Shown piece by piece: positions 8,980 through 56,049 of a stretch of DNA of 64,000 bases (its first letter is position 1; each line of letters begins with the position of its first letter). The DNA lies in NCBI GenBank assembly GCA_032622095.1, contig CP136066.1, positions 57,628,609-57,692,608 of the forward strand, written 5' to 3'. The notes under the pieces are model-generated. The model was not told the origin of the DNA. It worked only from the letters and a program-made list of their open reading frames with translations, and made no database searches. The translations under genes were made by a program, and so were the position numbers. The DNA is from Siphonodentalium dalli (Eukaryota > Mollusca > Scaphopoda > Gadilida > Siphonodentaliidae).

Positions 8980-9050
8980 CACGCCCGATAACCCTATAGG
9001 CTGGTGGCTGTGTGTAGACATATTGCTGTAGTGATATTGTGTGGCGGTTT
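8980..9050 (+). repeat. Left TIR of transposon copy 1
   Basis: Pairs with 13123-13192. Both arms share CACGCCCGATAACCCTATAG, then GGTGGCTGTG and ATATTGCTGTAGTGATATTG. Mismatches are scattered near the inner end. Confidence 0.85.
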
Positions 9051-10109
9051 TCACACGTGTGCTCAGAATTTGAGAAAAATCATAAATTCTGGAATCCACC
9101 CGGCGAGAACGCTTATGGCATTAAATAGGACCATGACTGGTGTATTCATACACCATTTGTGATAGCCGTGTGCCTTTAGATATTTTTTTTATTACTTAAT
9201 TTGTCGAATTTTACAACCGGTTTTTGTCGTTTATCAAAGAAACTACCTAATGTAATTGGTAGAAATCTCGATATGTAGGTTTCATGTACACATGTCACTA
9301 GATGCACATTCCATTGATACAATGAAACCAAAATCCACCATAAAAGACATATTTTTCGTGGAAAAATATTGATTTTCCTGAGTGTCATATCACAAATTTA
9401 TGACAGGCATATTGCCTCCGCAGATAGGCTCATGGCAAAGCACAAACTTGTTATGATAGGCAAGTGGCATTGTTGATAGGCACGTCGTAAATATTGACCA
9501 AGCTCCAATTTAGCACTTTAAAGCCAACAATATGCAACTTCTGGCATATATTATTTTATAAATACACTCTGGAATGATTATTCATTCATTCATATAAAAT
9601 AGACAGAACCACACATATGTGTGCATGATGTGAAAATTAACGCACGAGTTTGTTGCGCGGAATGTTACAACGTTACAACGATGGGGCGCGAGTTGTAACT
9701 TGCAGCATAATTTAATTTTCTCACCACGCACACATAATGTGTGGTTGTGTTTTATTACACACCCACTAGAACTATTCAACATCGAAATTTAGCGTTTATT
9801 GATTCGTTTCTGTCGTAATTTATAGCCATTTTTATCAAACTGATAGGCGACTTTATTAATAAAGTTTGTAGTTCTTGTTCAAAAGATAAAGTTGACGTAA
9901 TTTGTTACTCGTGACGTCGACGTTTTCCGTATTGTATACGTATTGAATACGCTGGTAAAGATATTGTATGGGCTACACTGCTCAATATAAGAAAATTAAC
10001 ACAATAGGTGTGTAATAAATATATAATTTGACTTGCGTGTTTGGCAACCGACAATAACACTATATTTATTGGAACTAATATATTTTTCGTTCTCGTTTCA
10101 GTTGCAAGC

Positions 10110-11787
10110 ATGGCACTCAAATATAAATGTTTTAACTGCGGGACAAAATTTGCTGACCTCGAGAATATCGTTGATCATATTGTTGATTTACACAAAGACG
10201 AAGAACTCCGGTATCTGGAAATTATTTTCGACACAAAAAGTGGGACAGAAAAGTATGCCAAAGAGGTTCATTCGGGAATAGTTCCGGCGGACTTAAAACG
10301 GGAGGGAAAACGTATTGTTGTGAATAATGAAAAAACATTTATTCTCAATATTCATTCGAAGGTGAAAAGGTTAAACACACCAGTTAAAAGGACGCTTGAC
10401 TTTGGTTCCGAGACCGTACAACATGATAGTTTCGATGATGACGATGATCTCGATGAACTTGACAGAGACACCATGAACTTTAATGATGATGCCCGTGATG
10501 GTCACTTCGAAGTAGAATTATCACAACTGTCCAGGATGCTACCCGATGTGTTACGAAATCTAGAACGCGAGGGCCAGGTCGACATGTTTATGAAGTTTAA
10601 TCGTTTGGTTGCACAGGACGAGTTACCTCTTGATAACATTTGCTATATCCTTTTCCTGGATGCGGTAAATTGGTTTTCCACATCGAATACATCGTTCATG
10701 AGATATCAGGAAGCAACCAGAGAATTTTGGAAGGCGGGATATCGACCTTTTCATGGAAAATTCATCAGATTCATGGGTGGTATCAGGAACTTGGGACAAG
10801 TTCTGGGGGGCGTAACCGAGAAAGGGTGGTTCAATCCACACGATTCCCGCATAAATTTTGCTGTACCCAGCATGTACCCAGCATGTACCCAGCATGTACC
10901 CAGCAAGAGTTGCTTGTTGTCCGCCAAACCTACAATGTCGTTTCTTCCTGGAATTTGTGACGAAGCAATTCAGAATATTGCAGAAAATGTGGATCGAAAA
11001 GTAATAAAAATTGCGGTTGTTGGGGAAAAAATATGCAGAGGTAAGGGGAAGATTATGGGAGACGTCGATTGCTGGGGCCACGAAACTGAACCGACGTTAA
11101 AGCAAAAGAAGACAGCACTGTTCGACGATAGAGCGATGGTGATCAAATGCATGAGCCGAACGAATGGAAGTGGACGATATTAAACTGTTGAATATGATAC
11201 CAAACTCATCGGCAGTTGAACTACTTAACCTCTTGCAAGCGTTGGTGACAAGAATGGCCGAGATCAACCATAATCTAAAGGACGGTGCTGAATCAGCTCG
11301 GCTGACAGAAGACAAGTTCAAGAAGCTGGCTGGCAGTAATTGGATCAAGTCCAGGTTTCATCCTGTAATATGTTTGATGCGGACGAAACGAAGCGAATTG
11401 ATCCAACATTTTGACGACAGTTTGGAAATCGTAACAGAACTGTCACATATTGGAAGTGTACTCAATGGGAAGCAGGAATATTGTTGTCCTTCCAATTATG
11501 TTGTGGTGTCTGAGCAACTGAACCTTCATGAACTCAATGAACATTATACAGGGTCGGAAAGTGAGCATATGGAACAACGAACTGACGAATGGTTTGCACT
11601 GAGGAAGACAGCAAAAGTTACGGGTAGTACCGCGTTCAATGCCGTTGGAGCCGGTTTGTTAAAATCCCAACATGAACATATCAGAATGCTGGAAGGGCAC
11701 GATAAACCAAGCCCAGACGAGGAAACAAAGAGGCGATTCGAATACGGGACAGAGCATGAAATTTCTGAGATATGCATTACAGTTTAA
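10110..11787 (+). pseudogene. Transposon-borne C2H2 zinc-finger / YqaJ-like nuclease gene, frameshifted and C-terminally short
   Basis: The first frame (10110-11183, 357 aa) starts at the first ATG, 9 nt after a good splice acceptor (TTCTCGTTTCAG, ending 10101), so an upstream non-coding exon is likely. Residues 5-30 hold a C-x2-C-x12-H-x4-H zinc finger, and an acidic stretch (DDDDDLDELD) follows near residue 110. One extra G near 11164 shifts the frame; the second frame (11164-11787, 207 aa) continues the protein. It carries QRTDEWFALR, KVTGS and YGTEHEISEI, the N-terminal motifs of YqaJ/lambda-exonuclease-type PD-(D/E)xK nucleases. The frame stops directly after them, before the catalytic D...ExK core. 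AATAAA (11831-11836) follows 44 nt after the stop. The family assignment is from motifs only. Confidence 0.7.
10864..10906 (+). repeat. 11-bp tandem repeat inside the ZnF-YqaJ frame
   Basis: GTACCCAGCAT is repeated about four times. Eleven is not a multiple of three, so each repeat changes reading frame locally (read here as PSMYPACTQHVPS). Confidence 0.85.
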
Positions 11788-13122
11788 ACGGAAGTTGCAA
11801 AACCCGCTCAAATTTGTGCTATTATTTCATAATAAACTGAATAATGTACCAAATTGTGTTTGTTCTCATAATATAAAATTTATATATGAATCTCCATATA
11901 TGGAGGATAATAAAGATATATATAAATGCACACGAAATATCACGGCGATTCCTCCTATATATAGCCCATGAGACAACAGCGCCCACTCAATTAAGTTAAC
12001 GCCCCACACACAGTTGTATTATTGCTCGGTGCTCCTGTTTATGTATATATGCGGCATAACTGGGTCATGGTTCAGGTCCACTATATGTATGCTCTAGCTA
12101 TACAGGTTCTAGCGTACCCTAATTTTCGCACCTGATATTTCTCTGAGCCCAATGTCTTTACCTATATTGATACCACATAAAATTATGTATAACTAATAGC
12201 TACATTTAACATTGGCGGGACATTGAATTATTGTTAATAGCATCGTATACTGTTATTTATTTGTGTGCGGTTTATATTCCATAAACCGGCGTAGACATGA
12301 ATCGTTCTGGTCGAAGAGAAAAAAAAAACAAATATATGAACGCCATTCTTTCGCAGAACGCCAAAAATAAAACCGGCTATAACTGGTAGCTATATTATCT
12401 ATATGTAGTGGACCATGACCATTCAGCCTGAAAACTGCACAAAGCTGGCATGGCTCATTTTTTTACATTAAAATATGCTGAATAGTTTGGGCTATACTTT
12501 CCCCATTTTCAATTAAAACCCCATTTTGCAAGTTTGTCACAGTTAAAACGTTTTACATTAAAACTGCCAGTATTTAGTTCTTGGAAATAAGTAGTGTATG
12601 TTTCCTGACTCATGGACGATGTGAATTTACAACACTGTGAATAATATAGCATCACAAAAGCGTTTTTCTCAGACTAAAACCATTATTGATCATTGTGCTG
12701 CATGCGTATATGTGTTTGCCATAATTTTATGTCTATCCTCTCGGTGTTTGGCTATTCAATATGCCTACCACAAAATATTGACGAGACAGTATGTCAAATA
12801 GCTTTTTTAAACTGAAAAATGCATTATTTGAGTTCGCAGTCATGTTTGTCTTGTCACTGAGATACTATAACACATGTGTCCACGAAAATAACTTACAAAT
12901 CGACATGCTGAGCAAATTTGGGTGTTTGTTTACTTTGACAGTTTGAAAAGGTCGACAAAATCCGAGATATTTTGTCTCCAAACAACGTATTCTACAATGC
13001 CAAATTGTTACCAAGAGGTTCAACTTATAAATCAGACATTACTGCATCTGACGTGATAAAAACATCTGACCTTTTACAGCGTATTTGATCAATTATAATC
13101 TAAAACATACCTTGGTTGAGAA

Positions 13123-13192
13123 ACCCGTCACGCAATATCACTACAGCAATATGCCTACCCACAGCCACCAGCCTATAGGGTTATCGGGCGTG
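13123..13192 (-). repeat. Right TIR of transposon copy 1
   Basis: Reverse complement of the left arm at 8980-9050. It ends in GGGTTATCGGGCGTG. Confidence 0.85.
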
Positions 13193-13261: not shown

Positions 13262-14300
13262 AGAGGGCATGTATATTTTCGGCCATAAAACATGGCCGCC
13301 GGCAGCCATCTTGGTATGACTAAATCCTTTGACACAGGCTACAGGTCGTATCTTTGGTCTGATCATCATGAAGTTTGTCATGGATGTTAATATTGAGATG
13401 TAGATGGGAACAAGTCATTTTGGGGTCATTCGGCAATAAAACATGGCCGCTGGCAGCCATCTTGGATTTAACTCTTTGCATGACTAAATCTTTTGGCATG
13501 GGCTACAGGTCGTAACTTTGGTAGGATCATCATGAAATTTGTCTTGGATGTTAATATTGACATGTAGATGGGAACGAGTCATTTTGGGGTCATTCTGCCG
13601 TAAAACATGGCCGCTGGCAGCCATCTTGGATTTAACTCTTTGCATGACTAAATCCTTTGGCACGGGCTACAGGTCTACCTTTGGTCGGATCATTATGAAA
13701 TTTGTCACGGCTCTTGACATTGACATGTAGATGGGAACGAGTCATTTTGCCATCATTCGGTAAAACAAAATGGCCGCCATCGGCCATCTTGGATTTCAAA
13801 ATTCAATCCATTAGCACGGGCTACATGCCGGAGTTTTCGTCTGATAATCATGAATTTTGACGTGGATGTTAATATTGACATACACATGGGAACGAGTCAT
13901 GTTAGGGTCATTCGGCCATAAAACATGGCCGCCAGCAGCCATCTTAGATTTTACTCTTTGCATGACTAAATCCTTTGCCACGGGCTACAGGTCGTACCTT
14001 TGGTCGAATCATTATGGAATTTGTCATGGCTGTTGACATTGACATGTGGATGGGAAACGAGTCATTTTGGGGTCATTCGGCGAAAAAACGAGGCCGCCAG
14101 TGGCCATCGTGAATTTCAAAATTCAATCCATTAGCACATTTCTAAGGATGTTAATATTGACATATAGATGGGAACGAGTCAATTTTGGGTCATACGACCA
14201 TAAAACGTGGCCGCTGGCAGCCATCTTGGATTTTACTCATTGCATGACTAAATCCTTTGGCACGGGCTACAATTCGTAGCTTTGGTCCGATCATTATGAA
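13262..14300 (+). repeat. Tandem array of 'ATGGCCGC' units, about seven copies
   Basis: Units of about 117-165 bp contain ACATGGCCGC(C/T)GGCAGCCA, TGACTAAATCCTTTG, GGGCTACAGGTCGTA and ATTGACATGTAGATGGGAAC. The array begins about 70 bp outside the right TIR of the transposon. The frames inside are shadows of the repeat. Confidence 0.8.
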
Positions 14301-22780: not shown

Positions 22781-23230
22781 TAAAAAACATTATTTAATAC
22801 ATTCTGTGCATATATGGCAGTGGTCGTCCAGCGTAGCGAGGGGACTGAACTATGTCAGACCAACATGACAGGGGACTAATCTATGTGGAATCACTTAACT
22901 AAATGGTTTCCCACAGACGACAGTGTTAACGTTTCAGCCAAATTGACAGACTTGAAACCTGCAAGCCACTCCAGTGATGTCTACCCAGCTAAATTGACAC
23001 CAGTTGAATAAGAAAATGCAAGAAAAATCATAGGTCATGCGTCTACTTTTAAAAATAAATACACAAGTGTGCGACAGGGCTATCCCACAGCCAAATTGCA
23101 TCTGGACAAACCCAGAAATATAGCAGCTAGTTAAATAATATTCCCACTCACAAAAATCCATTCCCCCCATTAATTCACCAGTTTAAATTATTTAAAGATG
23201 ATGAACAAATCAAATAAATAATATTTCACC
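22781..23230. other. Non-coding region 3' of the repeat-protein gene
   Basis: No coding frame with support. It lies beyond the presumed polyadenylation signal of the minus-strand gene. Confidence 0.4.
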
Positions 23231-23236
23231 TTTAAT
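23231..23236 (-). terminator. Candidate polyadenylation signal (ATTAAA)
   Basis: ATTAAA on the minus strand, about 105 nt after the stop codon of the repeat-protein gene. It is the commonest variant of AATAAA. The assignment is positional. Confidence 0.4.
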
Positions 23237-23339
23237 AACACATCATAACATAACATGACATAACACGTCCCGAATTTTAAACCGGGCGTTCAAACCGTGC
23301 TCTCATTTGTATTGCTATGCATATATACTTATACATGTA

Positions 23340-26300
23340 CTACATGCGTGAACGTTCCAAGTCGCTGTGTTTTCCGCTGTGGTCATCATGACCGGATCCC
23401 TTCTTGCTTCGGACCTCACGTTCCAAGTCGCTGTGTTTTCCGCTGTGGTCATCATGACCGGATCCCTTCTTGCTTCGGACCTCACGTTCCAAGTCGCTGT
23501 GTTTTCCGCTGTGGTCATCATGACCGGATCCCTTCTTGCTTCGGACCTCACGTTCCAAGTCGCTGTGTTTTCCGCTGTGGTCATCATGACCGGATCCCTT
23601 CTTGCTTCGGACCTCACGTTCCAAGTCGCTGTGTTTTCCGCTGTGGTCATCATGACCGGATCCCTTCTTGCTTCGAACCTCACGTTCCAAGTCGCTGTGT
23701 TTTCCGCTGTGGTCATCATGACCGGATCCCTTCTTGCTTCGGACCTCACGTTCCAAGTCGCTGTGTTTTCCGCTGTGGTCATCATGACCGGATCCCTTCT
23801 TGCTTCGGACCTCACGTTCCAAGTCGCTGTGTTTTCCGCTGTGGTCATCATGACCGGATCCCTTCTTGCTTCGGACCTCACGTTCCAAGTCGCTGTGTTT
23901 TCCGCTGTGGTCATCATGACCGGATCCCTTCTTGCTTCGGACCTCACGTTCCAAGTCGCTGTGTTTTCCGCTGTGGTCATCATGACCGGATCCCTTCTTG
24001 CTTCGAACCTCACGTTCCAAGTCGCTGTGTTTTCCGCTGTGGTCATCATGACCGGATCCCTTCTTGCTTCGGACCTCACGTTCCAAGTCGCTGTGTTTTC
24101 CGCTGTGGTCATCATGACCGGATCCCTTCTTGCTTCGGACCTCACGTTCCAAGTCGCTGTGTTTTCCGCTGTGGTCATCATGACCAGATCCCTTCTTGCT
24201 TCGGACCTCACGTTCCAAGTCGCTGTGTTTTCCGCTGTGGTCGTCATGACCGGACCCCTTCTTGCTTCGGACCGCACGTTCCAAGTCGCTGTGTTTTCCG
24301 CTGTGGTCATCATGACCGGATCCCTTCTTGCTTCGGACCTCACGTTCCAAGTCGCTGTGTTTTCCGCTGTGGTCATCATGACCGGATCCCTTCTTGCTTC
24401 GGACCTCACGTTCCAAGTCGCTGTGTTTTCCGCTGTGGTCATCATGACCGGATCCCTTCTTGCTTCGGACCTCACGTTCCAAGTCGCTGTGTTTTCCGCT
24501 GTGGTCATCATGACCGGATCCCTTCTTGCTTCGGACCTCACGTTCCAAGTCGCTGTGTTTTCCGCTGTGGTCATCATGACCGGATCCCTTCTTGCTTCGG
24601 ACCTCACGTTCCAAGTCGCTGTGTTTTCCGCTGTGGTCATCATGACCGGATCCCTTCTTGCTTCGGACCTCACGTTCCAAGTCGCTGTGTTTTCCGCTGT
24701 GGTCATCATGACCGGATCCCTTCTTGCTTCGGACCTCACGTTCCAAGTCGCTGTGTTTTCCGCTGTGGTCATCATGACCGGATCCCTTCTTGCTTCGGAC
24801 CTCACGTTCCAAGTCGCTGTGTTTTCCGCTGTGGTCATCATGACCGGATCCCTTCTTGCTTCGGACCTCACGTTCCAAGTCGCTGTGTTTTCCGCTGTGG
24901 TCATCATGACCGGATCCCTTCTTGCTTCGGACCTCACGTTCCAAGTAGCTGTGTTTTCCGCTGTGGTCATCATGACCGGATCCCTTCTTGCTTCGAACCT
25001 CACGTTCCAAGTTGCTGTGTTTTCCGCTGTGGTCATCATGACCGGATCCCTTCTTGCTTCGGACCTCACGTTCCAAGTCGCTGTGTTTTCCGCTGTGGTC
25101 ATCATGACCGGATCCCTTCTTGCTTCGGACCTCACGTTCCAAGTCGCTGTCTTTTCCGCTGTGGTCATCATGACCGGATCCCTTCTTGCTTCGGACCTCA
25201 CGTTCCAAGTCGCTGTGTTTTCCGCTGTGGTCATCATGACCGGATCCCTTCTTGCTTCGGACCTCACGTTCCAAGTCGCTGTGTTTTCCGCTGTGGTCAT
25301 CATGACCGGATCCCTTCTTGCTTCGGACCTCACGTTCCAAGTCGCTGTGTTTTCCGCTGTGGTCATCATGACCGGATCCCTTCTTGCTTCGGACCTCACG
25401 TTCCAAGTCGCTGTGTTTTCCGCTGTGGTCATCATGACCGGATCCCTTCTTGCTTCGGACCTCACGTTCCGAGTCGCTGTGTTTTCCGCTGTGGTCATCA
25501 TGACCAGATCCCTTCTTGCTTCGGACCTCACGTTCCAAGTCGCTGTGTTTTCCGCTGTGGTCATCATGACCGGACCCCTTCTTGCTTCGGACCGCACGTT
25601 CCAAGTCGCTGTGTTTTCCGCTGTGGTCATCATGACCGGATCCCTTCTTGCTTCGGACCTCACGTTCCAAGTCGCTGTGTTTTCCGCTGTGGTCATCATG
25701 ACCGGATCCCTTCTTGCTTCGGACCTCACGTTCCAAGTCGCTGTGTTTTCCGCTGTGGTCATCATGACCGGATCCCTTCTTGCTTCGGACCTCACGTTCC
25801 AAGTCGCTGTGTTTTCCGCTGTGGTCATCATGACCGGATCCCTTCTTGCTTCGGACCTCACGTTCCAAGTCGCTGTGTTTTCCGCTGTGGTCATCATGAC
25901 CGGATCCCTTCTTGCTTCGGACCTCACGTTCCAAGTCGCTGTGTTTTCCGCTGTGGTCATCATGACCGGATCCCTTCTTGCTTCGGACCTCACGTTCCAA
26001 GTCGCTGTGTTTTCCGCTGTGGTCATCATGACCGGATCCCTTCTTGCTTCGGACCTCACGTTCCAAGTCGCTGTGTTTTCCGCTGTGGTCATCATGACCG
26101 GATCCCTTCTTGCTTCGGACCTCACGTTCCAAGTCGCTGTGTTTTCCGCTGTGGTCATCATGACCGGATCCCTTCTTGCTTCGGACCTCACGTTCCAAGT
26201 CGCTGTGTTTTCCGCTGTGGTCATCATGACCGGATCCCTTCTTGCTTCGGACCTCACGTTCCAAGTCGCTGTGTTTTCCGCTGTGGTCATCATGACCGGA

Positions 26301-27448
26301 TCCCTTCTTGCTTCGGACCTCACGTTCCAAGTCGCTGTGTTTTCCGCTGTGGTCATCATGACCGGATCCCTTCTTGCTTCGGACCTCACGTTCCAAGTCG
26401 CTGTGTTTTCCGCTGTGGTCATCATGACCGGATCCCTTCTTGCTTCGGACCTCACGTTCCAAGTCGCTGTGTTTTCCGCTGTGGTCATCATGACCGGATC
26501 CCTTCTTGCTTCGGACCTCACGTTCCAAGTCGCTGTGTTTTCCGCTGTGGTCATCATGACCGGATCCCTTCTTGCTTCGGACCTCACGTTCCAAGTCGTT
26601 GTGTTTTCCGCTGTGGTCATCATGACCGGATCCCTTCTTGCTTCGGACCTCACGTTCCAAGTCGCTGTGTTTTCCGCTGTGGTCATCATGACCGGATCCC
26701 TTCTTGCTTCGGACCTCACGTTCCAAGTCGCTGTGTTTTCCGCTGTGGTCATCATGACCAGATCCCTTCTTGCTTCGGACCTCACGTTCCAAGTCGCTGT
26801 GTTTTCCGCTGTGGTCATCATGACCGGACCCCTTCTTGCTTCGGACCGCACGTTCCAAGTCGCTGTGTTTTCCGCTGTGGTCATCATGACCGGATCCCTT
26901 CTTGCTTCGGACCTCACGTTCCAAGTCGCTGTGTTTTCCGCTGTGGTCGTCATGACCGGATCCCTTCTTGCTTCGGACCTCACGTTCCAAGTCGCTGTGT
27001 TTTCCGCTGTGGTCATCATGACCGGACCCCTTCTTGCTTCGGACCTCACGTTCCAAGTCGCTGTGTTTTCCGCTGTGGTCATCATGACCGGATCCCTTCT
27101 TGCTTCGGACCTCACGTTCCAAGTCGCTGTGTTTTCCGCTGTGGTCATCATGACCGGATCCCTTCTTGCTTCGGACCTCACGTTCCAAGTCGCTGTGTTT
27201 TCCGCTGTGGTCATCATGACCGGATCCCTTCTTGCTTCGGACCTCACGTTCCAAGTCGCTGTGTTTCCCGCTGTGGTCATCATGACCGGATCCCTTCTTG
27301 CTTCGGACATCACGTTCCAAGTCGCTGTGTTTTCCGCTGTGGTCATCATGACCGGATCCCTTCTTGCTTCTTACGTCACGTTCCAAGTCACTGTGTCCCC
27401 CATTCTTCTTGCTCAGGTCTCCTCTTAGAGGGTTTCCCGAAGCGCAAA
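23340..27448 (-). CDS. Secreted 22-residue-repeat protein, exon 2 (about 61 repeats, ends at stop)
   Basis: Main exon of a minus-strand gene. It begins at 27448 just after TTTTCTTTGCAG and ends at TAG 23340-23342. Joined to exon 1 (31330-31369, phase 1) it makes exactly 1382 codons. After the signal peptide the chain reads NPLRGDLSKKNGG and then about 61 copies of a 22-residue unit: SKKGSGHDDHSGKHSDLE followed by REVR. Each unit has five basic residues, five acidic ones and three His, so the chain is a hydrophilic polyampholyte with no Cys in the repeats. The tail is HSDLERSRM. Plus-strand frames over the same array are also open, but they lack a signal exon and matching splice phases, and their recurrent variants change residues. 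The function is unknown. A matrix, mucus, adhesive or metal-binding protein would fit, and KK in every unit leaves a peptide precursor possible. Confidence 0.8.
23353..27400. repeat. 66-bp tandem array, about 61 copies, with higher-order structure
   Basis: The unit is 66 bp = 22 codons (plus strand begins CGTTCCAAGTCGCTGTG; each unit has CCGGATCC). Most copies are identical. Marker variants recur: an AGATCC unit followed by a GGACCC/GGACCGCACG unit occurs from 24181, 25501 and 26755, that is 20 and 19 units apart. A GAACCT variant occurs at 23671, 24001 and 24991. The array thus seems to have grown by duplication of blocks of about 1.3 kb. Confidence 0.95.
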
Positions 27449-28984
27449 CTGCAAAGAAAATTATCAGTGTAGTGTTTCTTGTTTTGCTTCTTAAAGCAAC
27501 ATAATTTGACTGTCGACCGCCGAATTAATTTTTTTAGTTCGTCGTCTGTTCGTTCATGTGTGTCTTTCTAAGATTGTCACTTGTTATTGTACCATATATA
27601 CTGTTTTCATATTTCCATCAACGCCGGGGTCAGTTACAAGTAAAAGGTAACGTGTACTAGCGCGGCACCAGAGCTATTGTTCTTCTATCGTTTCTATACG
27701 CAGTGTAGGGATTGTGCGTATTATGTGTCCTTGGTAACTGTGAAATACGTAGACACGTAGATGTGTGCACATATATTACAAGCTTCATCCACATGACGTG
27801 TCACGTGGATTAGGCTATACAGGTCCAAACAAATTTTGACGACGAAACATTTAAAGCGCTTTTGTCCGGGAGTTGATAGTGTTCCCCTGCAGGCCCTCGG
27901 GATTTAATTTCATCCCACTCATTTTGTTTCGTATTATGTCCTTCAATTTTTAAGCAATGTCAACTCAAAAAAAGTGGCAAAGAAAAAGATGGCGTCGACC
28001 ATGGCCGCCGTTTTCAGATAGGCACTCAGTCAGTTTGATGCAAATTGTTTAGCTAAGTCATAATGCCACCTTTATAGGGCGAAAGAGGAACTCCCCATCC
28101 AATATGGCCACCCGAAGTGGATAATAGGACGTTTTTTCACTAATATCTTCTAGAGCAGTTTCTGCAGTTTGGAAATGGTTGAGAATTATTGTAACTTTAT
28201 TTTGTATTTTTTATGTTGACTGATCATTGGAGCAAAGATGTATGCAATTATTTGGGTACTAGCCCTTCCGATCCCTCAAAAAATCGATTTTACAGAACGC
28301 GATAAAAAATTTCACCAAAAAATTGCAATTAGGATTCTATAGTCATATTTTACAAAGGAATGAGCAGAAATGTGTAATGTAAGTGAGGCAATCCATTACC
28401 CATGAATATATATTCCAACTCATTGGAACCAAAAGTGTTACTTTGGCTCAAAATGGCCGCCAAAATATGGAACATGGTAGACATTGCCCCAACGTGCCCT
28501 GCAATCGCTTACAAGTTGGGGTTGGTGTATAAAATTGACTATTCTGCCTTTCATACATTGAATACTAACATGTCTGATGCACCTTGGTTAATTGTCACAA
28601 ATGTCAGCAGAACGTTGGATTTTTCTCTCACAAACGTGACATAATTAACGGCAAAAATTCACTTTTCAAGTTTGGACCATTTGTTCAAGTAAAATGTAAC
28701 TATCGTTGGTATGAAAGGTGCTTATTGTTTTGATATATCTTAAATGTGTCATACTACGGTGTTTGTAGACCAAATTAGTCAAGATGACTTCCAAAATGTC
28801 AACCAAATTTGGTAGAAAGTTTATTTTTATTTTTACATATATCCCGAACTTTATTATCTGCTGTTCCTAAAAGGTGGCAATTTGTGAGTCACTTGGTTAT
28901 TAGATATGTTAGTTAATCAACTGACAACTAAATGTTCTATTCTGGTTGTCATTTAAAAGTTGCAGTATGGATATAACAGAGTAG

Positions 28985-29700
28985 CTACATAGTCATATAT
29001 ATGTTGTTCTTGTATATATGGAGTGACCGTGTGTTGATGGGTGAGATGAACAAGTGTACCTTGGTGGTTGTACTGGAACAGATGGGTGTATATGTATACA
29101 TGTGTTGTCCCTATGATCATGGGTGGGGTGTATGTATAAATATGGAGTTGTTGTATGGCTACATCATATGTAATGTGTATATGTGTACATGGAATGACTG
29201 TACGGCCAATATTGAAGTCTATATGTATACATGGAGTATAATGGATGGTCATTGGGATAGCGTGTGGCTATATAGGGAGTGCCCTTGCGGTAATGGGTGT
29301 GGTGTATATTTATATATGTCGTGGGTGTATTATCATTGGTGGGTGTATAGGTATACAGGGAGTAGCTATATGTTCATGGATGGCGTGTATGAGTATATAG
29401 CGAGTTGCTTAATTGTGAGGTGTATATGCACGTATGGAAGATATGAGTGCTCATGTATATCTGGAAGGACTGTATGGCCATTGGTGATGCGTATATGTAT
29501 ACATGGAGTGACTGTGGTCATGGGTGGGGTGCATATGTATATATCGAGTGGCCAAATGACCATGGGTGTGGCGAATAGGTATACAGGGAGTGACTGTATG
29601 GTTAATGGTGAGGTGAATGTGTGTACAAGGATTGACTGCATGATCATGCGAATGTGGTAAATAGGTAAACAGGGAGTGACTATATGGTCATGTGCCAGGT
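28985..29700. repeat. Degenerate minisatellite, about 42-bp unit
   Basis: Variants of TATACATGGAGTGACTGTATGG-type units recur roughly every 42 bp; the best-kept part has units at about 29498, 29540, 29580, 29622 and 29665. Frames stay open on both strands because the unit has few stops, so the 219-aa plus-strand frame is not taken as a gene. Confidence 0.7.
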
Positions 29701-29714
29701 GTATGAGTAGACCA

Positions 29715-29750
29715 TATATGGAATTCATGAATATTCATGAATTCCATATA
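29715..29750. repeat. 36-bp perfect palindrome
   Basis: TATATGGAATTCATGAAT followed directly by its exact reverse complement. It lies at the edge of a larger inverted repeat whose other arm is at about 30080-30150. Confidence 0.9.
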
Positions 29751-30260
29751 GGGAATGCACCTCCAGAACTTTGACCTGCGGCACTTAAAACGCGGAACGG
29801 TGTCTGCATGGATGCATCCACTATGGCCGCGACGTAGTAGACCATGCCTGCATGTGAGGATAATTTAGAGCTGGCAGCGATAATGAACTTGCTATGTGGT
29901 ATTACATATGTTTCATGTTTAATAATAATAAAAAAGAAACAAGAGAGCGAAGTTCCCATTTAAGACAACACAATATACGTTTTCCAAACAATCGCGCATT
30001 ATTCCGTTTCTGAATCGGGAAATTAAGAAATAAGCGAGATCACTTAGTCGCTACCAAATATGGTATCCATCCAACCCATTTCGCGGTTTAAGTGCTACAG
30101 GTCAAAGTTCTGGATTAGCATTCCATATATGGAGTTTCGAATATTCATGAATGTGCGGAACGGGCTGGATAGATCTAATATGGTAGCGACCCAGTTGTCT
30201 CGCTTATACATATAGCGTAATGGCTGCTCTCGTCCGAAGATTGTGTTCCAAGTGGGGATA
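29715..30260. mobile_element. Palindrome-containing dispersed element
   Basis: The left arm (about 29715-29800) and right arm (about 30080-30155) are inverted copies sharing AGGTCAAAGTTCTGGA and CATATATGGA...GAATATTCATGAA. A diverged relative lies at 3800-4115. Likely a non-autonomous fold-back or MITE-type element; exact termini are not clear. Confidence 0.5.
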
Positions 30261-30468
30261 TTTTATAACTAGAACAGACTTCAATGCATCTTTCTGGAAC
30301 ATATAATGTTTGTGGAAAGGTATTTCATGTATTTATCCACCTATTTCGATGCCGGGAAAAAACAAAAGACATGTGCCTCCAAGGGACGGTCACCAAATGT
30401 GTTTATCTGGCCAGGTTTGTCAGTAACTGTTGCTATCATGGACATCTTGTCCGTGTCGGTAGTTCCAC

Positions 30469-30546
30469 GGGTCCCTGGCACAATAGACCCCCACCTCCCA
30501 AAGACATATGTCTTTGGGTGGTGGGAGTCTATTGTGCCAGGGACCT
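30469..30546. repeat. Long hairpin, about 38-bp arms
   Basis: GGTCCCTGGCACAATAGAC pairs with GTCTATTGTGCCAGGGACC. The centre is AAAGACATATGTCTTT. The arms match except for a few bases in the CCACC/GGTGG part. Confidence 0.8.
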
Positions 30547-30879
30547 GTGGATGTGCGTGCCGATAATACATGCGTCTTACTAAAAGACATTAGGCCGGAT
30601 TTAGCGGCTAATTGTGTGATAAATGCATTTAGGTCACACTTGCCAGAATCAAGATTAGAATTAGTCGTGGATTGTACCCTTTGGAAAACTGCTGTGGTAT
30701 ATATGTCATTGGCCGAATATTCACGCTTGGAGTTTGTGCAGGAGTTTTACAGGGTTCTCGGCTTTGGAATGAAAGTTAATTCGCAGTATACCAATGATCA
30801 ACCGCATCGTTATAGGGTGTGGAAAATTACGCCCGTGGTAATTACAACAAATGCCATAACTATGTTGAACGTTGGCGGT

Positions 30880-31200
30880 CGGAATCCAAATTCGAACTTG
30901 ACCTGTATTTTGGGCTAATATACACACGTATACCAAATGTCATTCGATTCAGTTCAGAGTTAATAATGTTATCATCCGAAAACGAAAATTGAGGGCCACG
31001 AGTCTGGTTAAAATTGGCGGGCGAAACCCGAATTCGAAATTGACCTGTATTTTGTGCTAGTAAACTCACATACTAAATTTGATTCTATTCAGTTGCAGGA
31101 AACTATCTAAACTTATTATCCGGAAACAAATAGTGAACGGACGTACGAACAGACGTCTCGACGGACGGACCAATAACATAATACGTCCCGTTTAAAAAAA
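30880..31200. repeat. Two-unit direct repeat with a short terminal hairpin
   Basis: Two diverged units of about 120 bp share TTGGCGG(T/G)CG, AATTCGAA(C/A)TTGACC and TGTATTTTG(G/T)GCTA. They are followed by GACGGACGGACC and CCCGTTTAAAAAAAAACGGG (about 31187-31206). This looks like the 3' portion of a dispersed element. Confidence 0.45.
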
Positions 31201-31329
31201 AACGGGCATATATATAAAACTTCACTTAGTTTAAGCATTGCCCAGCAAATTATTTTCACGTTATTAAATTATTTTGTGTCCAAGCTGCTATAATGTATAT
31301 ATAATTATGATATTGCTAGTATAACTCAC

Positions 31330-31369
31330 CTGCTAAGGCTATGAGCACGGCAATCAAGTAGATCCTCAT
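31330..31369 (-). CDS. Secreted 22-residue-repeat protein, exon 1 (signal peptide)
   Basis: Forty nucleotides on the minus strand from ATG (31369-31367): MRIYLIAVLIALA plus one base, then the donor GTGAGT. Joined to exon 2 the protein starts MRIYLIAVLIALAVCASG, a compact signal peptide: one Arg, a hydrophobic core of about 12 residues, and small residues at a likely cleavage point after VCA or SG. The ATG has A at -3 (AAAGATG) and is the first ATG after the presumed start of transcription, about 20-25 nt from it. Phase 1 here matches exon 2 exactly. A short signal exon followed by one huge repeat exon is a common layout for secreted repetitive proteins. Confidence 0.8.
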
Positions 31370-31417
31370 CTTTCTTGGTGAACAGTGTTTGTTGTTTGCT
31401 CCCTCAGCGTGTAGTAA

Positions 31418-31425
31418 TATTTATA
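31418..31425 (-). promoter_or_regulatory. TATA box of the repeat-protein gene
   Basis: TATAAATA on the minus strand, 49 nt upstream of the ATG. Transcription would start about 25-30 nt downstream (about 31390-31395), giving a very short 5' leader. This is typical of highly expressed secreted-protein genes. Confidence 0.65.
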
Positions 31426-36993: not shown

Positions 36994-39900
36994 CACGCCC
37001 GATAACCCTATAGGCTGGTGGCTGTGGGTAGACATATTGCTGTAGTGATATTGTGTGGCGGTTTTCACACGTGTGCTCAGAATTTGAGGAAAATCATAAA
37101 TTCTGGAATCCACCCGGCGAGAACGCTTATGGCATTAGATAGGACCATGACTGGTGTATTCATACACCATTTGTGATAGCCGTGTGCCTTTAGATATATT
37201 TTTTATTACTTAATTTGTCGAATTTTACAACCGGTTTTTGTCGTTTATCAAAGACACTACCTAATATAAATGGTAGAAATCTCGATATGTAGGCTTCATG
37301 TACACATGTCACTAGATGCACATTCCATTGATACAATGAAACCAAAATCCACAATAAAAGACATATTTTTCGTGGAAAAATATCGATTTTCCTGAGTGTC
37401 ATATCACAAATTTATGACAGGCATATTGCCTCCGCAGATAGGCTCATGGCAAAGCACAAACTTGTTATGATAGGCAAGTGGTAAATATTGACCAAGCTCC
37501 AATTTAGCACTTTAAAGCCAACAATATGCAACTTCTGGCATATATTATTTTATAAATACACTCTGGAATGATTATTCATTCATATAAAATAGACAGAACC
37601 ACACATATGTGTGCATGACGTGAAAATTAACGCACGAGTTTGTTACGCGGAATGTTACAACGTTACAACGATGGGGCGCGAGTTGTAACTTGCAGCATAA
37701 TTTAATTTTCTCACCACGCACACATAATGTGTGGTTGTGTTTTATTACACACCCACTAGAACTATTCAACATCGAGATTTAGCGTTTATTGATTCGTTTC
37801 TGTCGTAATTTATAGCCATTTTTATCAAACTGATAGGCGACTTTATTAATAAAGTTTGTAGTTCTTGTTCAAAAGATAAAGTTGACGTAATTTGTGACTC
37901 GTGACGTCGACGTTTTCCGTATTGTATACGTGTTGAATACGCTGGTAAAGATATTGTATGGGCTACACTGCTCAATATAAGAAAATTAACACAATAGGTG
38001 TGTAATAAATATATAATTTGACTTGCGTGTTTGGCAACCGACAATAACACTATATTTATTGGAACTAATATATTTTTCGTTCTCGTTTCAGTTGCAAGCA
38101 TGGCACTCAAATATAAATGTTTTAACTGCGGGACAAAATTTGCTGACGTCGAGAATATCGTTGATCATATTGTTGATTTACACAAAGACGAAGAACTCCG
38201 GTATCTGGAAAGTATTTTCGACACAAAAAGTGGGACAGAAAAATATGCCAAAAAGGTTCATTCGGGAATAGTTCCGGTGGACTTAGAACGGGAGGGAAAA
38301 CGTATTGTTGTGAATAATGAAAACACATTTATTCTCAATATTCATTCGAAGGTGAAAAGGTTAAACACACCAGTTAAAAGGACGCTCGACTTTGGTTCCG
38401 AGACCGTACAACATGATAGTTTCGATGATGACGATGATCTCGATGAACTTGACAGAGACACCATGAACTTTAATGATGATGCCCGTGATGGTCGCTTCGA
38501 AGTAGAATTATCCCAACTGTCCAGGATGCTACCCGATGTGTTACGAAATCTAGAACGCGAGGTCCAGGTCGACATGTTTATGAAGTTTAATCGTTTGGTT
38601 GCACAGGACGAGTTACCTCTTGATAACATTTGCTATCTCCTTTTCCTGGATGTGGTAAATTGGTTTTCCACATCGAATACATCGTTCATGAGATATCCGG
38701 AAGCAACCAGAGAATTTTGGAAGGCGGGATATCGACTTTTTCATGGAAAATTCATCAGATTCATGGGTGGTATCAGGAACTTGGGACAAGTTCTGGAGGG
38801 CGTAACCGAGAAAGGGTGGTTCAATCCACACGATTCCCGCATAAATTTTGCTGTACCCAGCATGTACCCAGCATGTACCCAGCATGTACCCAGCAAGAGT
38901 TGCTTGTTGTCCGCCATACCTACAATGTCGTTTCTTCCTGGAATTTGTGACGAAGCAATTCAGAATATTGCAGAAAATGTGGATCGAAAAGTAATAAAAA
39001 TAGCGGTTGATGGGAAATAAATATGCAGAGGTAAGGGGAAGATTATGGGAGACGTCGATTGCTGGGGCCACGAAACTGAACCGACGTTAAAGAAAAAGAA
39101 GACAGCACTGTTGGTCGATAGAGCGATGGTGATCAAATGCATGAGCCGAACGAATGGAAGTGGACGATATTAAACTGTTGAATATGATACCAAACTCATC
39201 GGCAGTTGAACTACTTAACCTCTTGCAAGCGTTGGTGACAAGAATGGCCGAGATCAACCATAATCTAAAGGACCGTTCTGAATCAGCTCGGCTGACAGAA
39301 GACAAGTTCAAGAAGCTGGCTGGCAGTAATTGGATCAAGTCCAGGTTTCATCCTGTAATATGTTTGATGCGGACGAAACGAAGCGAATTCATCCAACATT
39401 TTGACGACAGTTTGGAAATCGCAACAGAACTGTCACATATTGGAAGTGTACTCAATGGGAAGCAGGAATCTTGTTGTCCTTCCAATTATGTTGTGGTGTC
39501 TGAGCAACTGAACCTTCGTGAACTCAATTAACATTATACAGGGTCGGAAAGTGAGCATATGAAACAACGAACTGACGAATGGTTTGCACTGAGGAAGACA
39601 GCAAAAGTTACGGGTAGTACCGCGTTCAATGCCGTTGGAGCCGGTTTGTTAAAATCCCAACATGAACATATCAGAATGCTGGAAGGGCACGATAAACCAA
39701 GCCCAGATGAGGAAACAAAGAGGCGATTCGAATACGGGACAGAGCATGAAATTTCTGAGATATGCATTACAGTTTAAACGGAAGTTGCAAAACCCGCTCA
39801 AATTTGTGCTATTATTTCATAATAAACTGAATAAATACTAATTATTTCTAAGTTTTAATACATTTTATCAGATTTATTGACTAATTTCTGCATTTAGAAG

Positions 39901-41321
39901 CAGAATCTTAGATTTAGATGTCAGAAAATCTTAAATCATCCCGCGATGACAACTCGATGTTTTTTTTCTGAGGTGATCATTTCTCCGATATGATATCGTA
40001 CTCGGTGAATTTTAGACGCACCCAAAAACCTGCCCCACGGTCTTGACAAAAACAATTACCACTATAAATGCACACGAAGTATCACGGCGATTCCTCCTAT
40101 ATATAGCCCATGAGACAACAGCGCCAACTCAATTAAGTTAACGCCCCACACACAGTTGTGTTATTGCTCGGTGCTCCTGTTTATGTATTTATGCGGCATA
40201 ACTGGGTCATGGTTCAGGTCCACTATATGTATGCTCTAGCTATACAGGTTCTAGCGTACCCTAATTTTCGCACCTGATATTTCTCTGAGCCCAATGTCTT
40301 TACCTATATTGATACCACATAAAGTTATGTATAACTATTAGCTACATTTAACATTGGCGGGACATTGAATTATTGTTAATAGCATCGTATACTGTTATTT
40401 ATTTGTGTGCGGTTTATATTCCATAAACCGGCGTAGACATGAATCATTCTGGTCGAAGAGAAAAAAAGAAATATATGAACGCCATTCTTTCGCAGAACGC
40501 CAAAAATAAAACCGGCTATAAATGGTAGCTATATTATCTATATGTAGTGGACCATGACCATTCAGCCTGAAAACTGCACAAAGCTGGCATGGCTCATTTT
40601 TTTACATTAAAATATGCTGAATAGTTTGGGCTATACTTTCCCCATTTTCAATTAAAACCCCTTTTTGCAAGTTTGTCACAGTATTTAGTTCACAGTTAAA
40701 ACGTTTTACATTACAACTGCCAGTATTTAGTTCTTGGAAATAAGTAGTGTATGTTTCCTGACTGATGGACGATGTGAATTTACAACACTGTGAATAATAT
40801 AGCATCACAAAAGCGTTTTTCTCAGACTAAAACCACTATTGATCATTGTGATACATGCGTATATGTGTTTGCCATATGTCTATCCTCTCGGTGTTTGGCT
40901 ATTCAATATGCCTACCACAAAATATGGACGGGACAGTATGTCAAATAGCTTTTTTTAACTGAAAAATGCATTATTTGAGTTCGCAGTCATGTTTGTCTTG
41001 TCACTGAGATACTATATCACATGTATCCACGAAAATAACTTACAAATGCTGAGCAAATTTGGGAGTTTGTTTACTTTGAAAGTTTGAAAAAGTCGACAAA
41101 ATCCGAGATATTTTGTCTTCAAACAACGTATTCTGCAATGCCAAATTGTTACCAATAGGTTCAACTTATAAATCAGACATTACTGCATCTGACGTGATAA
41201 AAAAAATCTGACCTTTTACAGCGTATTTGATAAATTATAATCTAAAACATACCTTGGTTGAGAAACCCGCCACGCAATATCACTACAGCAATATGCCTAC
41301 CCACAGCCACCAGCCTATAGG
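36994..41321 (+). mobile_element. 4.2-kb TIR DNA transposon with ZnF-YqaJ gene, copy 2 (right end lost)
   Basis: Nearly identical to 8980-13192 from the CACGCCCGATAACCC terminus onward. The inner part of the right TIR is present (about 41263-41321), but its last 15 or so bases are replaced by an LTR-element fragment starting GGCGAGAGTCC. An interior block (39833-40065) differs from copy 1 (11843-11925). The different outer flanks argue for transposition rather than segmental duplication. Confidence 0.8.
38100..39777 (+). pseudogene. ZnF-YqaJ gene of transposon copy 2, more degraded
   Basis: Same gene as 10110-11787, with the same splice acceptor (ending 38091), zinc finger, acidic stretch and 11-bp repeat. 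The first frame stops earlier, at TAA 39018-39020, in IKIAVDGK-stop. The shared extra G near 39154 shifts into the second frame. That frame has its own stop at 39529-39531 (NLRELN-stop), beyond which the YqaJ-type motifs QRTDEWFALR, KVTGS and YGTEHEISEI continue to 39777. It therefore has two stops more than copy 1 and cannot give a single product. Confidence 0.75.
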
Positions 41322-42184
41322 GCGAGAGTCCAAGCATGCTCTGCTGGTCGAGATATATTACGACGAATGCTTCTTCTTAGTAGTTATGATTATATGTTAT
41401 TCTCCGTGGCTGCCTTGCTGTTAACTTGTAAATACTTGTATAAATAATGTTATAATGTCATGTCTGAGAGTTGCCGACTTAGTGTGGAAGAACCTGGGAG
41501 TATTAAATCCCCGACTTGGTGCCGTGAGCGAGACGCTTCTTGGAATTCTTGGAAATGGACGCGGGCAGTCACGGGGAAGGAAAGAGTTATGAGATAATTT
41601 GCATATTGGCTGGTTCACATCCCCTCATAGACATTAAGGTCGATTTATCTTTGGTTTACAATTGTTGTGTCAATTGTACATATAAGGTATGCTTTGAAAC
41701 TGTCGTTGCGCGGAAGTTGTCTAAGCTTCTCTTGTGTTGCGTCTATGTCAAGTTGTTGTTTTGAAATCGTTGCGTCGATTTAAAATAAATAATATCTGGT
41801 CTAAATTGTTGTGTAAATTGGCCATAGTTATCACATTTCACAAATGTTACCAGGTATAATAAATAATCACTGGAATAAAATTAGTGTCCATCGCTATATG
41901 GTATTCAATAAAATGGATAAGATTGATGTTACAATCTGCACGAAAATGAGTCCCAGTGAATTATGAAAGTATGCATTATTGTGTTCCGTCTAGATCGAGT
42001 TGTTGTTTTAAAATTGTTGCGTCGATTTAAAATAAATTATATCTGGTCGAAATTTTTGTGTAAATTGGCCGTAGTTATTAAATTTGACAAATGTTACCAT
42101 ACCTGATTAATAAATAATCACTGGGATAAAATTAGTGTCCATCGTTATGGCATCCAATAGTCCAGGAGATATTGGTCGACCTCT

Positions 42185-53428: not shown

Positions 53429-54827
53429 AGACTTGTTTGTGTCACAGTGGTATCTTATCAGCGGAACAAAGCGAAGAGTAATATCGAAATAGCATTTGAA
53501 TGTTGTTGTTGTGACCGGAGGTCTGGAATATTCAATACATCTTTGAAGTTTTACATTCTACACTATAGTTAACACAATAATATATGTCCAGATTACCACT
53601 ATATGATATCAGTGACACCACGTTATTCACGTATCCACGTGTAAGAAACCGTGGTATCAGAATATAGCGTTAATTTCTTAAAACCCCACATGCCCCATAA
53701 TTGAGGATCAATTATGTTATCGTACTTATACTCACGTTAAAAACTTTGAACTGGATACTTACTGGTGGGAAGCACTTGATGCTCATTAATTAATGTGTAT
53801 TAATGTTGACCCAATAAGTTAATGATTTACAGTACACGAAGTCCTTGTTTGAATAATTCACAAATTGGAGAAAATGGATATATTATAAAACTACTGTACT
53901 ACTTTGTTGTGACGCGATGGTACATCGAGAATCACAGGTTCAAGTTGCACCTGGCGGTATGATCAACAAGTACAACAATTTCAACCAGTTCACAACACAG
54001 GGGCGTGTCTTTAAAACTAGTACAAAATACATTTAAAATATATACGTTAAAACGAGCGCGCCACATTAAAATGTATCGATAAGCAATACATACTTAACAA
54101 GGGAGTTAAGTTTTCAGATACCTCCTCACTTCTAACGGCCATAATTCACAAACGCCTGAACTGACTCTCAAAATTCCAACGACCACAATCAAGTAAAAGC
54201 TATATTTTCTAGTCCCAGTACACTGGGATAAACTGTTCCAAGAATTTGAAAACAGACCCTAAACACAAAAATCAGAGAGAGCACCGGCTAATGGATCCCT
54301 TGATAGCATAGGAGAAAATATATCGTCCATTTCAAAGTCAATAATTATCGATAAAAAACCAACATTTTTAACAAAATAATCTACATGTATCGTCATATCT
54401 AATGTTAATCTCCCATAATCAATTGGATATTTGAATCTAAGTCGCCACTATGTTCCCATATCTCAGCAATAATTTCAAATTAGGTTTTTCATTTAAAATC
54501 AACTCAATGACCTATTGGCGAGCACGCACTTAATATACTGATCGTTGATTGGTTAAACCGGTATCACGCGTAATTTGTGTACTCCGCAATCGTTTCGTAA
54601 TGAGTGTTAAATATAGGAATATTGTGGCGACATGGATTCAAATATGCGATTGATTTGCAACCACTGTGGAATTTTCCAAGGAAAAGATAGACGTTTTTAA
54701 AGAACTATTTTGAAATCTGTGATTTGCTGTATTTCGCAAAAAGAAAACAATAAAGCATTGTTCATGCAAGAGTAGACCCCTTCCCTGTTGTGGCTCTATT
54801 CATTAGTAAATCGATAAAAGCACTCAC
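53429..54827 (-). other. Presumed intron of the PAN/apple-like gene
   Basis: Lies between the donor at 54827 and the candidate small exons downstream. A strong donor-like sequence (minus strand CACCAGTAAGTATCC, near 53765) suggests another small exon, but no good acceptor pairs with it. Confidence 0.35.
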
Positions 54828-55130
54828 CGGCTTTCTCATGAGAACGGCACTGGCATCCTCCTCGAGCTCACCCGCGGCCTCACATGAAAGAAAACAGTTT
54901 TGGTCAGTGTCAAGTCCCGCAAAGAATGTTACTGTCCTGCACCAGTTTTGTCGAATACATCTGGTCGCACACGATGTCTCGGAAACCGCGCCCGCCCCAA
55001 CGACCTGCGAGATGTTGAAGCCATTTTCTTTCCAACCAGGAATTATTTCAAATGTTGTCTGTTTAGTCTTCTTGGCAGTGGCTGACCCGACCAGAAGGCA
55101 ACAGATAACAAGAAGGCATAAACGGTTCAT
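54828..55130 (-). CDS. Secreted PAN/apple-like domain protein, first coding exon
   Basis: A 303-nt exon (101 codons, phase 0) from ATG 55130-55128 to the donor GTGAGTGC. The N-terminus MNRLCLLVICCLLVGSATA is a clear signal peptide, with likely cleavage after ATA. The rest holds SCATRCIRQNWC, then TVTFFAG and NCFLSC. This fits the C-x3-C-x5-C-x4-F...C-x-L spacing of PAN/apple modules, which bind proteins or sugars on extracellular proteins. Such domains are common in animal secreted lectin-like and adhesion proteins. The protein is incomplete here; two small candidate exons lie at 52801-52851 and 52362-52386. A CCAAT motif lies about 130 nt upstream, but no TATA box is evident. The domain call is from cysteine spacing. 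Confidence 0.7.
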
Positions 55131-56049
55131 CTTCGATTTTCTTGCTGCGCTGCACAGATCGAGTTGCAGCTGATTCCACAACGTAATGAAAGTGTGCGTT
55201 GTCTGTTGGCAATGTTAGATTATTGACCCACGACCCATTAGTGACAATCCGCGCTCTCATTGGACCGCCTTGCCCACGTATACTCTGATTCGTTAACAGT
55301 CTGTCACGACATTGAGATGAATACCAATATCGTTATGAAGATGAAATGTTAACACACAAACGCCAGCGAAATATCTTATTTGAATCACGATTGTACGATC
55401 TATATAGCGTATTTCACAATAATAAAATCACAAGCTGTCAATCCACAAAATACTATAAAACCATTGGTTGTCAAACATTTAGCCATTAAATTTCTTTCTC
55501 GATAACCTAAATTCCTTGATTGCATCTGCTGTATAAATGACAGCCATCGTGTCATATGACCATACATATACAGTGTGCCTAAATGTACATGAAAACTATT
55601 CGATATAAACGGTAAGTCCGGTGTTGCATCAACATTCATTCAGGTAGGACTGCCCTGCCATTAACTTTACTACTAACTAAACATCAGTAAGTCGGTGTAT
55701 TTATCGACCTATTTCGATACCGGAAAAAAATTCAAAAGCGAATATTATTAGGTGTATTTTGGAGCTCAAACCAATGTTAGTGCCCCTCTCGTCCAAACGA
55801 CACCAATGTATCCAACGTTTTATATGACGAGAATATTCCCACGAACCAGTTCAGTCACACGACTACTTATACAGCTGGATGTCTCATCGCTGCAACCGAG
55901 AAGGCGCATAAAAAGGATTCTAACATTCCACAAAGCCAAACATGGCAATGTGGCAATAAAACTTCCTTGGAAAAACAACAGCGACAGACGCGAGGATTTA
56001 ACACTGTCAAATTAACCCCACTACAACCTAACATCGACAGTTATACATA
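55131..56049. other. Upstream flank of the PAN/apple-like gene
   Basis: Holds the presumed promoter (CCAAT near 55256-55265, minus strand) and otherwise unrecognised sequence. Confidence 0.4.

Follow-up and report, generated by a model that had tools for sequence, protein, structure and literature searches.

What does a long array of near-identical 66-bp repeats in the genome of the scaphopod Siphonodentalium dalli encode, and what might its product do? The array lies on the minus strand of a 64,000-nucleotide stretch (contig CP136066.1, positions 57,628,609 to 57,692,608; hereafter the window), and the sequence around it looks like a genuine two-exon animal gene under selection, one of a family. 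The predicted product is a secreted protein of 1382 residues. We see an even chance that it is a polyprotein releasing His-rich, probably metal-binding peptides, a reading that we favour over an uncut structural polyampholyte.

An earlier note on this DNA had proposed a two-exon gene of about 61 repeat units, and the exons, the GT donor and the AG acceptor do join in that way. The coding part of exon 1 (31330..31369, on the minus strand like all features of the gene) comprises 40 nt, that is 13 codons (MRIYLIAVLIALA) plus 1 nt (phase 1); it is spelled ATGAGG...TAGCAG and is followed directly 3' by the donor GTGAGT. After an intron of 3881 nt (27449..31329, GT...AG), exon 2 (23340..27448, 4109 nt) holds the end of the signal peptide, a leader unit, 61 repeats and the stop codon TAG, with TTTTCTTTGCAG and its AG acceptor directly 5' of it. 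Joined, the exons give 4149 nt or 1383 codons, in which the only stop is the last codon (TAG), so that the frame runs open through every repeat, as had been claimed. A TATA box, TATAAATAT (31417..31425), is separated by 47 nt from the ATG at 31369; box, signal exon and GTGAGT donor had all been recognised in the earlier note and were found as described, the promoter and exon 1 recurring at 25 loci. The predicted protein start is hydrophobic (mean Kyte-Doolittle value of 2.98 over residues 3–16), and the predicted secreted chain would combine a signal peptide with tandem repeats, as is expected of secreted polyproteins.

The tandem array itself (23352..27396; Tandem Repeats Finder period 66, 61.3 copies, 98% matches) encodes the unit SGHDDHSGKHSDLEREVRSKKG. 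The string SGHDDHSG starts 61 times at a spacing of 22 residues in all 60 intervals; 51 of the 61 units have identical amino acids, and 14 distinct DNA forms are present. The acceptor had been placed exactly at the array edge; the AG is there, but the first regular repeat comes some 50 nt into exon 2, behind a degenerate leader, CASGNPLRGDLSKKNGGHSDLER (27378..27448), which is conserved across subfamilies in alignment and in the ratio of non-synonymous to synonymous substitution (dN/dS). A higher-order repeat of 19–20 units is suggestive only, its top shared-variant count of 4 equalling the shuffle maximum of 4. About 100 nt past the stop lies ATTAAA, a possible poly(A) signal (23231..23236). 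The 3' flank that holds it (23120–23247) is part of a genome-wide repeat; among the best 40 of 1496 candidates scored for that repeat, 32 rows cover 23120–23247 only.

Sequence comparison confirmed the gene as one of at least 28 related loci in the 2.2-Gb genome. A 243-bp query of promoter and exon 1 matched 27 genomic stretches and an acceptor-region query 25; a query from a distant member (9 rows) gave 2 further loci, and a second exon-1 query across the genome (21 rows) no additional locus. Of the 28 loci, 25 were matched in exon 1 and the other 3 in exon 2 alone; they are spread over contigs C6 (2), C3 (11), C4 (4), C5 (8), C2 (2) and C8 (1). A genome protein search, in which the best 150 of 901 candidates were scored, listed 184 matches, and its counts are lower bounds. 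We read exon 2, completely or partially, at 18 loci of our own choice out of the 28. Its array is open at 12 of these (the window gene, its C6 partner C6b, six on C3, one on C4, two on C5 and one on C2), with one of them, C3_88581, extending beyond the retrieved sequence without a stop. The six broken arrays are C3_88630 and C4_221007, which have lost the reading frame, C5_152894, with frame lost and ATG absent, C5_152856, with no ATG at the expected place and a frame of 316 codons, C2_119821 and C8_91372. At one more exon-1 copy, C4_89481, exon 1 itself contains an in-frame stop, and the 10 kb retrieved there showed no exon 2.

Exon 1 was read in four of the 12 open genes (window, C6b, C4_220900 and C2_139917) and is open in all four. 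Its 13 residues are unchanged in C6b, C4_220900 and C3_88727, with one change in C2_139917 and in C5_196593. All 16 exon-2 rows have the AG acceptor and all 7 exon-1 copies the GT donor, and TATAAATAT or TATAAAAAT stands in all seven paralogous promoters compared as well as in C5_152856; at the TATA-box position the broken copies C2_119821 and C8_91372 have TATAAATGT and TACAAATAT, respectively. Between subfamilies the intron aligns only piecewise, whereas the promoter with exon 1 and the acceptor align. C6b lies in inverted orientation 1.7 Mb from the window gene and, like the rest of the family, outside the window that the earlier note had covered. Over two overlapping pieces of 8408 and 5109 bp, which take in intron and flank, the two copies are 99.2% identical, and C6b has 69 repeat anchors where the window gene has 61; it would be either a recent duplication or an assembly duplicate, which look the same here.

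Four unit types, of 22, 25/22, 30 and 23 residues, are found in the open arrays. Type A (C6 and C3; SGHDDHSGKHSDLEREVRSKKG, 22 residues) makes up seven arrays of 50–126 anchors, whose exon-2 chains range from 1128 to 2800 residues. Type B (C4; 25 and 22 residues) contains HDDHDDHHGKH, type C (C5 and C2; 30 residues) contains HDDHHGGHKGSGHGGH, and type D (C3; 23 residues) contains HDDLGKKKGG; type E and its kin (C5, C2 and C8; 24 or 25 residues) are broken. The types share a core, LEREVR-x-KKGSGHDD, with small changes. The leader also carries R-D/G/E-V-R, with both Arg invariant in 10 of 10 aligned rows. Where the end of an open gene was read, in 11 cases, the chain terminates in DLER-SRM, DLER or HSD, the last unit being without R-X-X-R.

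Since four of the six frames are open across the window array (more than 1350 codons), an open frame alone is weak evidence of coding. Variation in this array by itself is likewise weak support (6 synonymous variant types against 3.4 expected, z 1.7), and the weight of the coding case therefore comes from the paralogues. In the predicted frame, the 12 open arrays hold 140 synonymous variant types against 76.3 expected, and no new stop against 10.8 expected. The antisense frame sharing the third codon position gave 122 synonymous types against 85.7, and the other four frames 49–62 against 74–89. Because recent paralogues share variants, each type was also counted once per subfamily, which yielded 91 synonymous types against 56.2 expected, 135 non-synonymous against 169.8, and no stop-bearing unit. 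In parallel, dN/dS was obtained from the leader, plus exon 1 where read in both members, for 15 pairs (14 of them cross-subfamily) over 37 to 50 codons. Values of 0.08–0.31 were found in 12 of the 14 cross-subfamily pairs; the window gene gave 0.08 against B, 0.25 against C and 0.21 against E. Two A–D pairs gave 0.71 and 1.04, each on two synonymous changes. On these ratios the leader is under purifying selection in most comparisons. The synonymous excess, strongest in the predicted frame, together with the low cross-subfamily dN/dS, therefore indicates a gene under selection; against this stand the weak signal of the window array and one paralogue, C3_88610, with no synonymous excess (5 against 5.2 expected).

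Function was approached through the constraint on two Arg residues. A per-position table was drawn up from 740 units of the open arrays after removal of 12 leader units and 5 terminal ones; the incomplete units that close the arrays, such as RSKKGSGHDDHSGKHSDLER, stand outside it. Five 26-residue C units and five 22-residue D units are also omitted from it, and all ten keep both Arg, as does an 18-residue unit outside the scheme (C3_88562). In an earlier per-position tally the Arg after Val had been fixed by the search pattern. Within R-x-x-R-x-K-K the first Arg is changed in 1 of the 740 units and the second in none, whereas the two residues between them are changed in 58 and 50, Glu and Val being replaced by Lys, Val, Ala or Gly among others. 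The Lys-Lys pair (K3, K4) is changed in 3 and 6 units. His-8 is changed in 7 units, and D9 and D10 in 132 and 106; within the 472 type-A units, His-8, -11 and -15 are changed in 3, 4 and 1, D9 in 118 and D10 in 100, the Asp mostly to Gly.

Counted as variant types, non-synonymous changes at the two Arg number 1 against 11.5 expected (Poisson P 1e-4) and synonymous ones 7 against 6.9, and since synonymous changes occur there as expected, the Arg columns do not look like a mutational cold spot. The two residues between show 27 types against 13.7 expected (P 1e-3). As a control, the broken arrays C4_221007 and C3_88630 together have 5 Arg types against 6.1 expected. By a search pattern that requires the flanking codons and sees only part of the units, 21 of the 107 units seen in five broken arrays lack an Arg, compared with 1 of 651 for the 12 open arrays, the losses in broken arrays lying in C2_119821 (14 of 33, all Gln), C4_221007 (6 of 25) and C3_88630 (1 of 34, a Lys). 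Thus the Arg pair is constrained in open arrays and relaxed in some broken ones. In the broken C2 member (C2:119812500-119821480), 9 of the 32 unit intervals carry an in-frame stop; stop-bearing units recur in it and Arg-to-Gln units are common, and the array seems to have grown on after frame loss.

A near-fixed Arg pair with loose residues between is, at the level of sequence, the pattern of a furin-type R-X-X-R site; such a predicted site lies between the units, with both Arg constrained and X free, although this was recognised post hoc. The polyprotein reading is favoured because of this pattern, because of the precedents described below and because the chains end before another R-X-X-R. 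The repeat protein, if expressed, would enter the secretory pathway by a signal peptide supplied mostly by exon 1, and exon 2 would contribute the short leader and the 61 near-identical units. The last four residues of each unit, R-E-V-R, form a minimal furin-type motif. Cutting by a proprotein convertase would follow its second Arg, ahead of Ser and then Lys-Lys, giving about 60 copies of a hydrophilic peptide of about 22 residues, SKKGSGHDDHSGKHSDLEREVR or trimmed forms of it. The H-x-x-H-x-x-x-H of the released peptide would probably bind Zn, Cu or Ni. Repetition would yield much peptide per transcript, and array length may shift by unequal exchange.

Several observations weigh against this polyprotein reading. 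With Val at P2 and Glu at P3 the furin site would be a weak one, and the Arg could instead serve salt bridges or sugar binding. Subfamily D has one His per unit. Arg loss is 0 of 5 in C5_152856 and 0 of 10 in C5_152894; it is 0 of 4 in C8_91372, where a looser pattern finds 1 of 9 units reading stop at that place. By the stricter pattern only three of the six broken arrays show any loss, C3_88630 with just one Lys in 34, and the 14 units with Gln in the broken array on C2 may go back to one event. In two broken arrays the residues between the Arg are also over-variable (17 against 7.3), as is expected if the variation is older than the frame break. The Lys-Lys columns (9 against 15.1 expected, P 0.065) and the DLE and GSG columns are not clearly depleted. 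Finally, the Arg pattern was seen first and then tested on the same data, and the units are not independent, since variants spread by copying within an array.

The alternative that survives best, which we put only a little below an even chance, is an uncut secreted structural protein, that is, a disordered polyampholyte of balanced charge in the matrix of a mucus, glue, tube, radula or shell. In such a protein the His clusters would chelate metal, the RxxRxKK patch would hold sulphated polysaccharide or the acidic patches of neighbours, and repeat number would set chain length. The unit is a balanced polyampholyte as claimed, with a net charge of 0 (Lys and Arg minus Asp and Glu), and the presumed mature chain, free of Cys, Gln, Ile, Phe, Thr and Trp, with an isoelectric point of 8.5 and a grand average of hydropathy (GRAVY) of −2.0, suits this role. 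So do an AlphaFold model of a 110-residue piece without structure (mean predicted local distance difference test score 51, low confidence), the retention of His where D-D is often G-G, and the spread of exon-2 chain lengths among the seven type-A genes that are open (1128 to 2800 residues). The genes are moreover clustered and multicopy, as in many matrix protein families. Yet a structural role does not by itself explain the near-fixed Arg pair with changing Glu and Val between, and residues for cross-links are scarce (Tyr) or missing (Cys and Gln) (Tyr and Pro each make up 0.1% of the presumed mature chain, and Pro is absent from the unit). The earlier interpretation is partly supported: the 740-unit pattern fits R-X-X-R cleavage at least as well as the structural role in mucus, shell or tube that had been thought possible before. 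His-x-x-His with free residues between points to metal under the polyprotein and the structural readings alike.

Much less probable is a neuropeptide or hormone precursor cut at Lys-Lys into peptides such as GSGHDDHSGKHSDLEREVRS. The Lys-Lys pair is indeed kept in nearly every unit, and GKKK in subfamily D resembles an amidation site, but the type-A peptide has neither an aromatic residue nor an amidation signal, Lys-Lys by itself is, as far as is known, the dibasic site used least, and a signalling peptide with dozens of copies in each gene of a family at more than 20 loci would, to our knowledge, be unusual. Least probable of all, and very improbable, is a non-coding satellite open in several frames by chance: four open frames, near-identical units and repeats all around speak for it, but promoter, signal exon, splice sites and leader are conserved at many loci, cross-subfamily dN/dS is low, the synonymous excess is strongest in a predicted frame devoid of stops, and some frame-broken copies lose Arg or gain stops.

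The precedents for such a precursor are of several kinds. Basic salivary proline-rich proteins (PRPs) are disordered. The human precursors PRB1–PRB4 are described as cut at R-X-X-R, always after the second Arg, and, like the repeat gene, as secreted, with 20–21-residue tandem repeats mostly in one exon and an allelic repeat number (PMC3235478). They differ, in the same description, in their Pro/Gln/Gly repeats of up to 15 copies, in a Ser after the first Arg and in a site that is not in every unit (PMC3235478). Here, by contrast, the unit is Pro-free and rich in His, Asp and Lys, with the motif in nearly every unit, and the proline-rich repeat of the basic salivary family is lacking. Nematode polyprotein allergens of the ABA-1 type have folded lipid-binding units of more than 100 residues, whereas the units here have 22–30 residues and no predicted structure. 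The allergen repeats are reported to be parted by regularly spaced basic furin-like sites (PMC3079579). A folded lipid-binding unit was not found in the window protein, given its 22-residue units, unstructured model and lack of a Pfam match above cut-off. Profilaggrin has a repeat of more than 300 residues and no signal exon of this kind. It is described as a precursor of His-rich near-identical repeats processed to monomers, in this resembling the repeat protein, but as a keratohyalin granule protein with 10–12 repeats (PMC8835998).

Mussel foot protein 1 shares secreted repeats of a metal-linked material but is reported to be rich in DOPA made from Tyr (PMC5343498); with Tyr at 0.1%, Tyr/DOPA-rich repeats are not found here. 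Another secreted repetitive protein (PMC6351634) shares a His-rich part but is described as having a Gly/Ser-rich repeat and a WF-rich chitin-binding-like part in 539 residues; our protein, without Phe or Trp, is set apart from it by that description. The repeat proteins had no Pfam match above cut-off, three units matched no PDB chain, and NCBIfam gave only matches far below cut-off, among them the staphylococcal MSCRAMM (ClfA) model at 23.5 bits against a cut-off of 1150, taken as Ser/Asp composition. No relative was found by tblastn in bacterial and archaeal genome contigs or viral contigs. This absence is weak because the searches covered Pfam, PDB, NCBIfam and bacterial, archaeal and viral sets, and no animal collection. 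In the literature searched the unit strings occur in no paper, and the family is undescribed in its titles and abstract openings. Sequence, unit number and family layout thus seem new, and secreted tandem-repeat precursors are a known kind.

Other features were seen within and around the gene. Its intron contains an 88-bp inverted repeat (30464–30551) resembling a miniature inverted-repeat transposable element, 94% identical to its own reverse complement in the C6 copy, and a degenerate tandem-like stretch around TATACATATACACC (29013–29709), with shifted alignments to the C6 copy of 66.8–73.1%. A direct duplication, 8980–13180 and 36994–41322, 28 kb apart, flanks the gene on both sides; its copies match at 97.5% identity along 2865 bp and at 95.4% along 1275 bp, and they contain open frames of 383 codons (10032–11183) and 332 codons (38022–39020). 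The window also holds a satellite-like array of five 164-bp copies (13309–14137) and, at 54762–55214 on the minus strand, an open frame whose start resembles a signal peptide and which contains a PAN_1 domain (23.8 bits, cut-off 21.4). Elsewhere in the genome, 22 guanidino kinase exon matches lie on C1 (58.84–58.89, 59.52, 253.2 and 268.7 Mb) and C9 (185.4 Mb), at some loci with exons resembling two domains in a row. Six of these loci were excised and four read on the correct strand; the four arginine kinase exon peptides look lophotrochozoan, and a mollusc is possible on this evidence. A query built from two of them yields a peptide of GGYKDWP type, which scores best against a taurocyamine kinase of two domains and next against an arginine kinase that also has two. 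The entry 4wo8 is from a trematode; the peptide type is molluscan, and arthropod enzymes differ from it. Hemocyanin models of molluscs and of arthropods had no match, and neither had the controls.

For the family as a whole we tentatively suggest, at a little below even probability, an undescribed group of secreted mega-polyproteins, each of which would free about 45–126 mostly His-rich metal-binding peptides at R-X-X-R, with promoter, signal exon and leader shared and the linker swapped (His/Asp, His/Gly or Lys/Gly). Repeat genes of this sort are easily missed or collapsed in annotation; the reading frame of the window gene is intact, and the gene is multicopy and under codon-level selection. 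If its units are cut out, one transcript would give about 60 copies of a probable metal-binding peptide; if the chain stays uncut, the protein would be a candidate metal-responsive biopolymer, new and built from a simple repeat.

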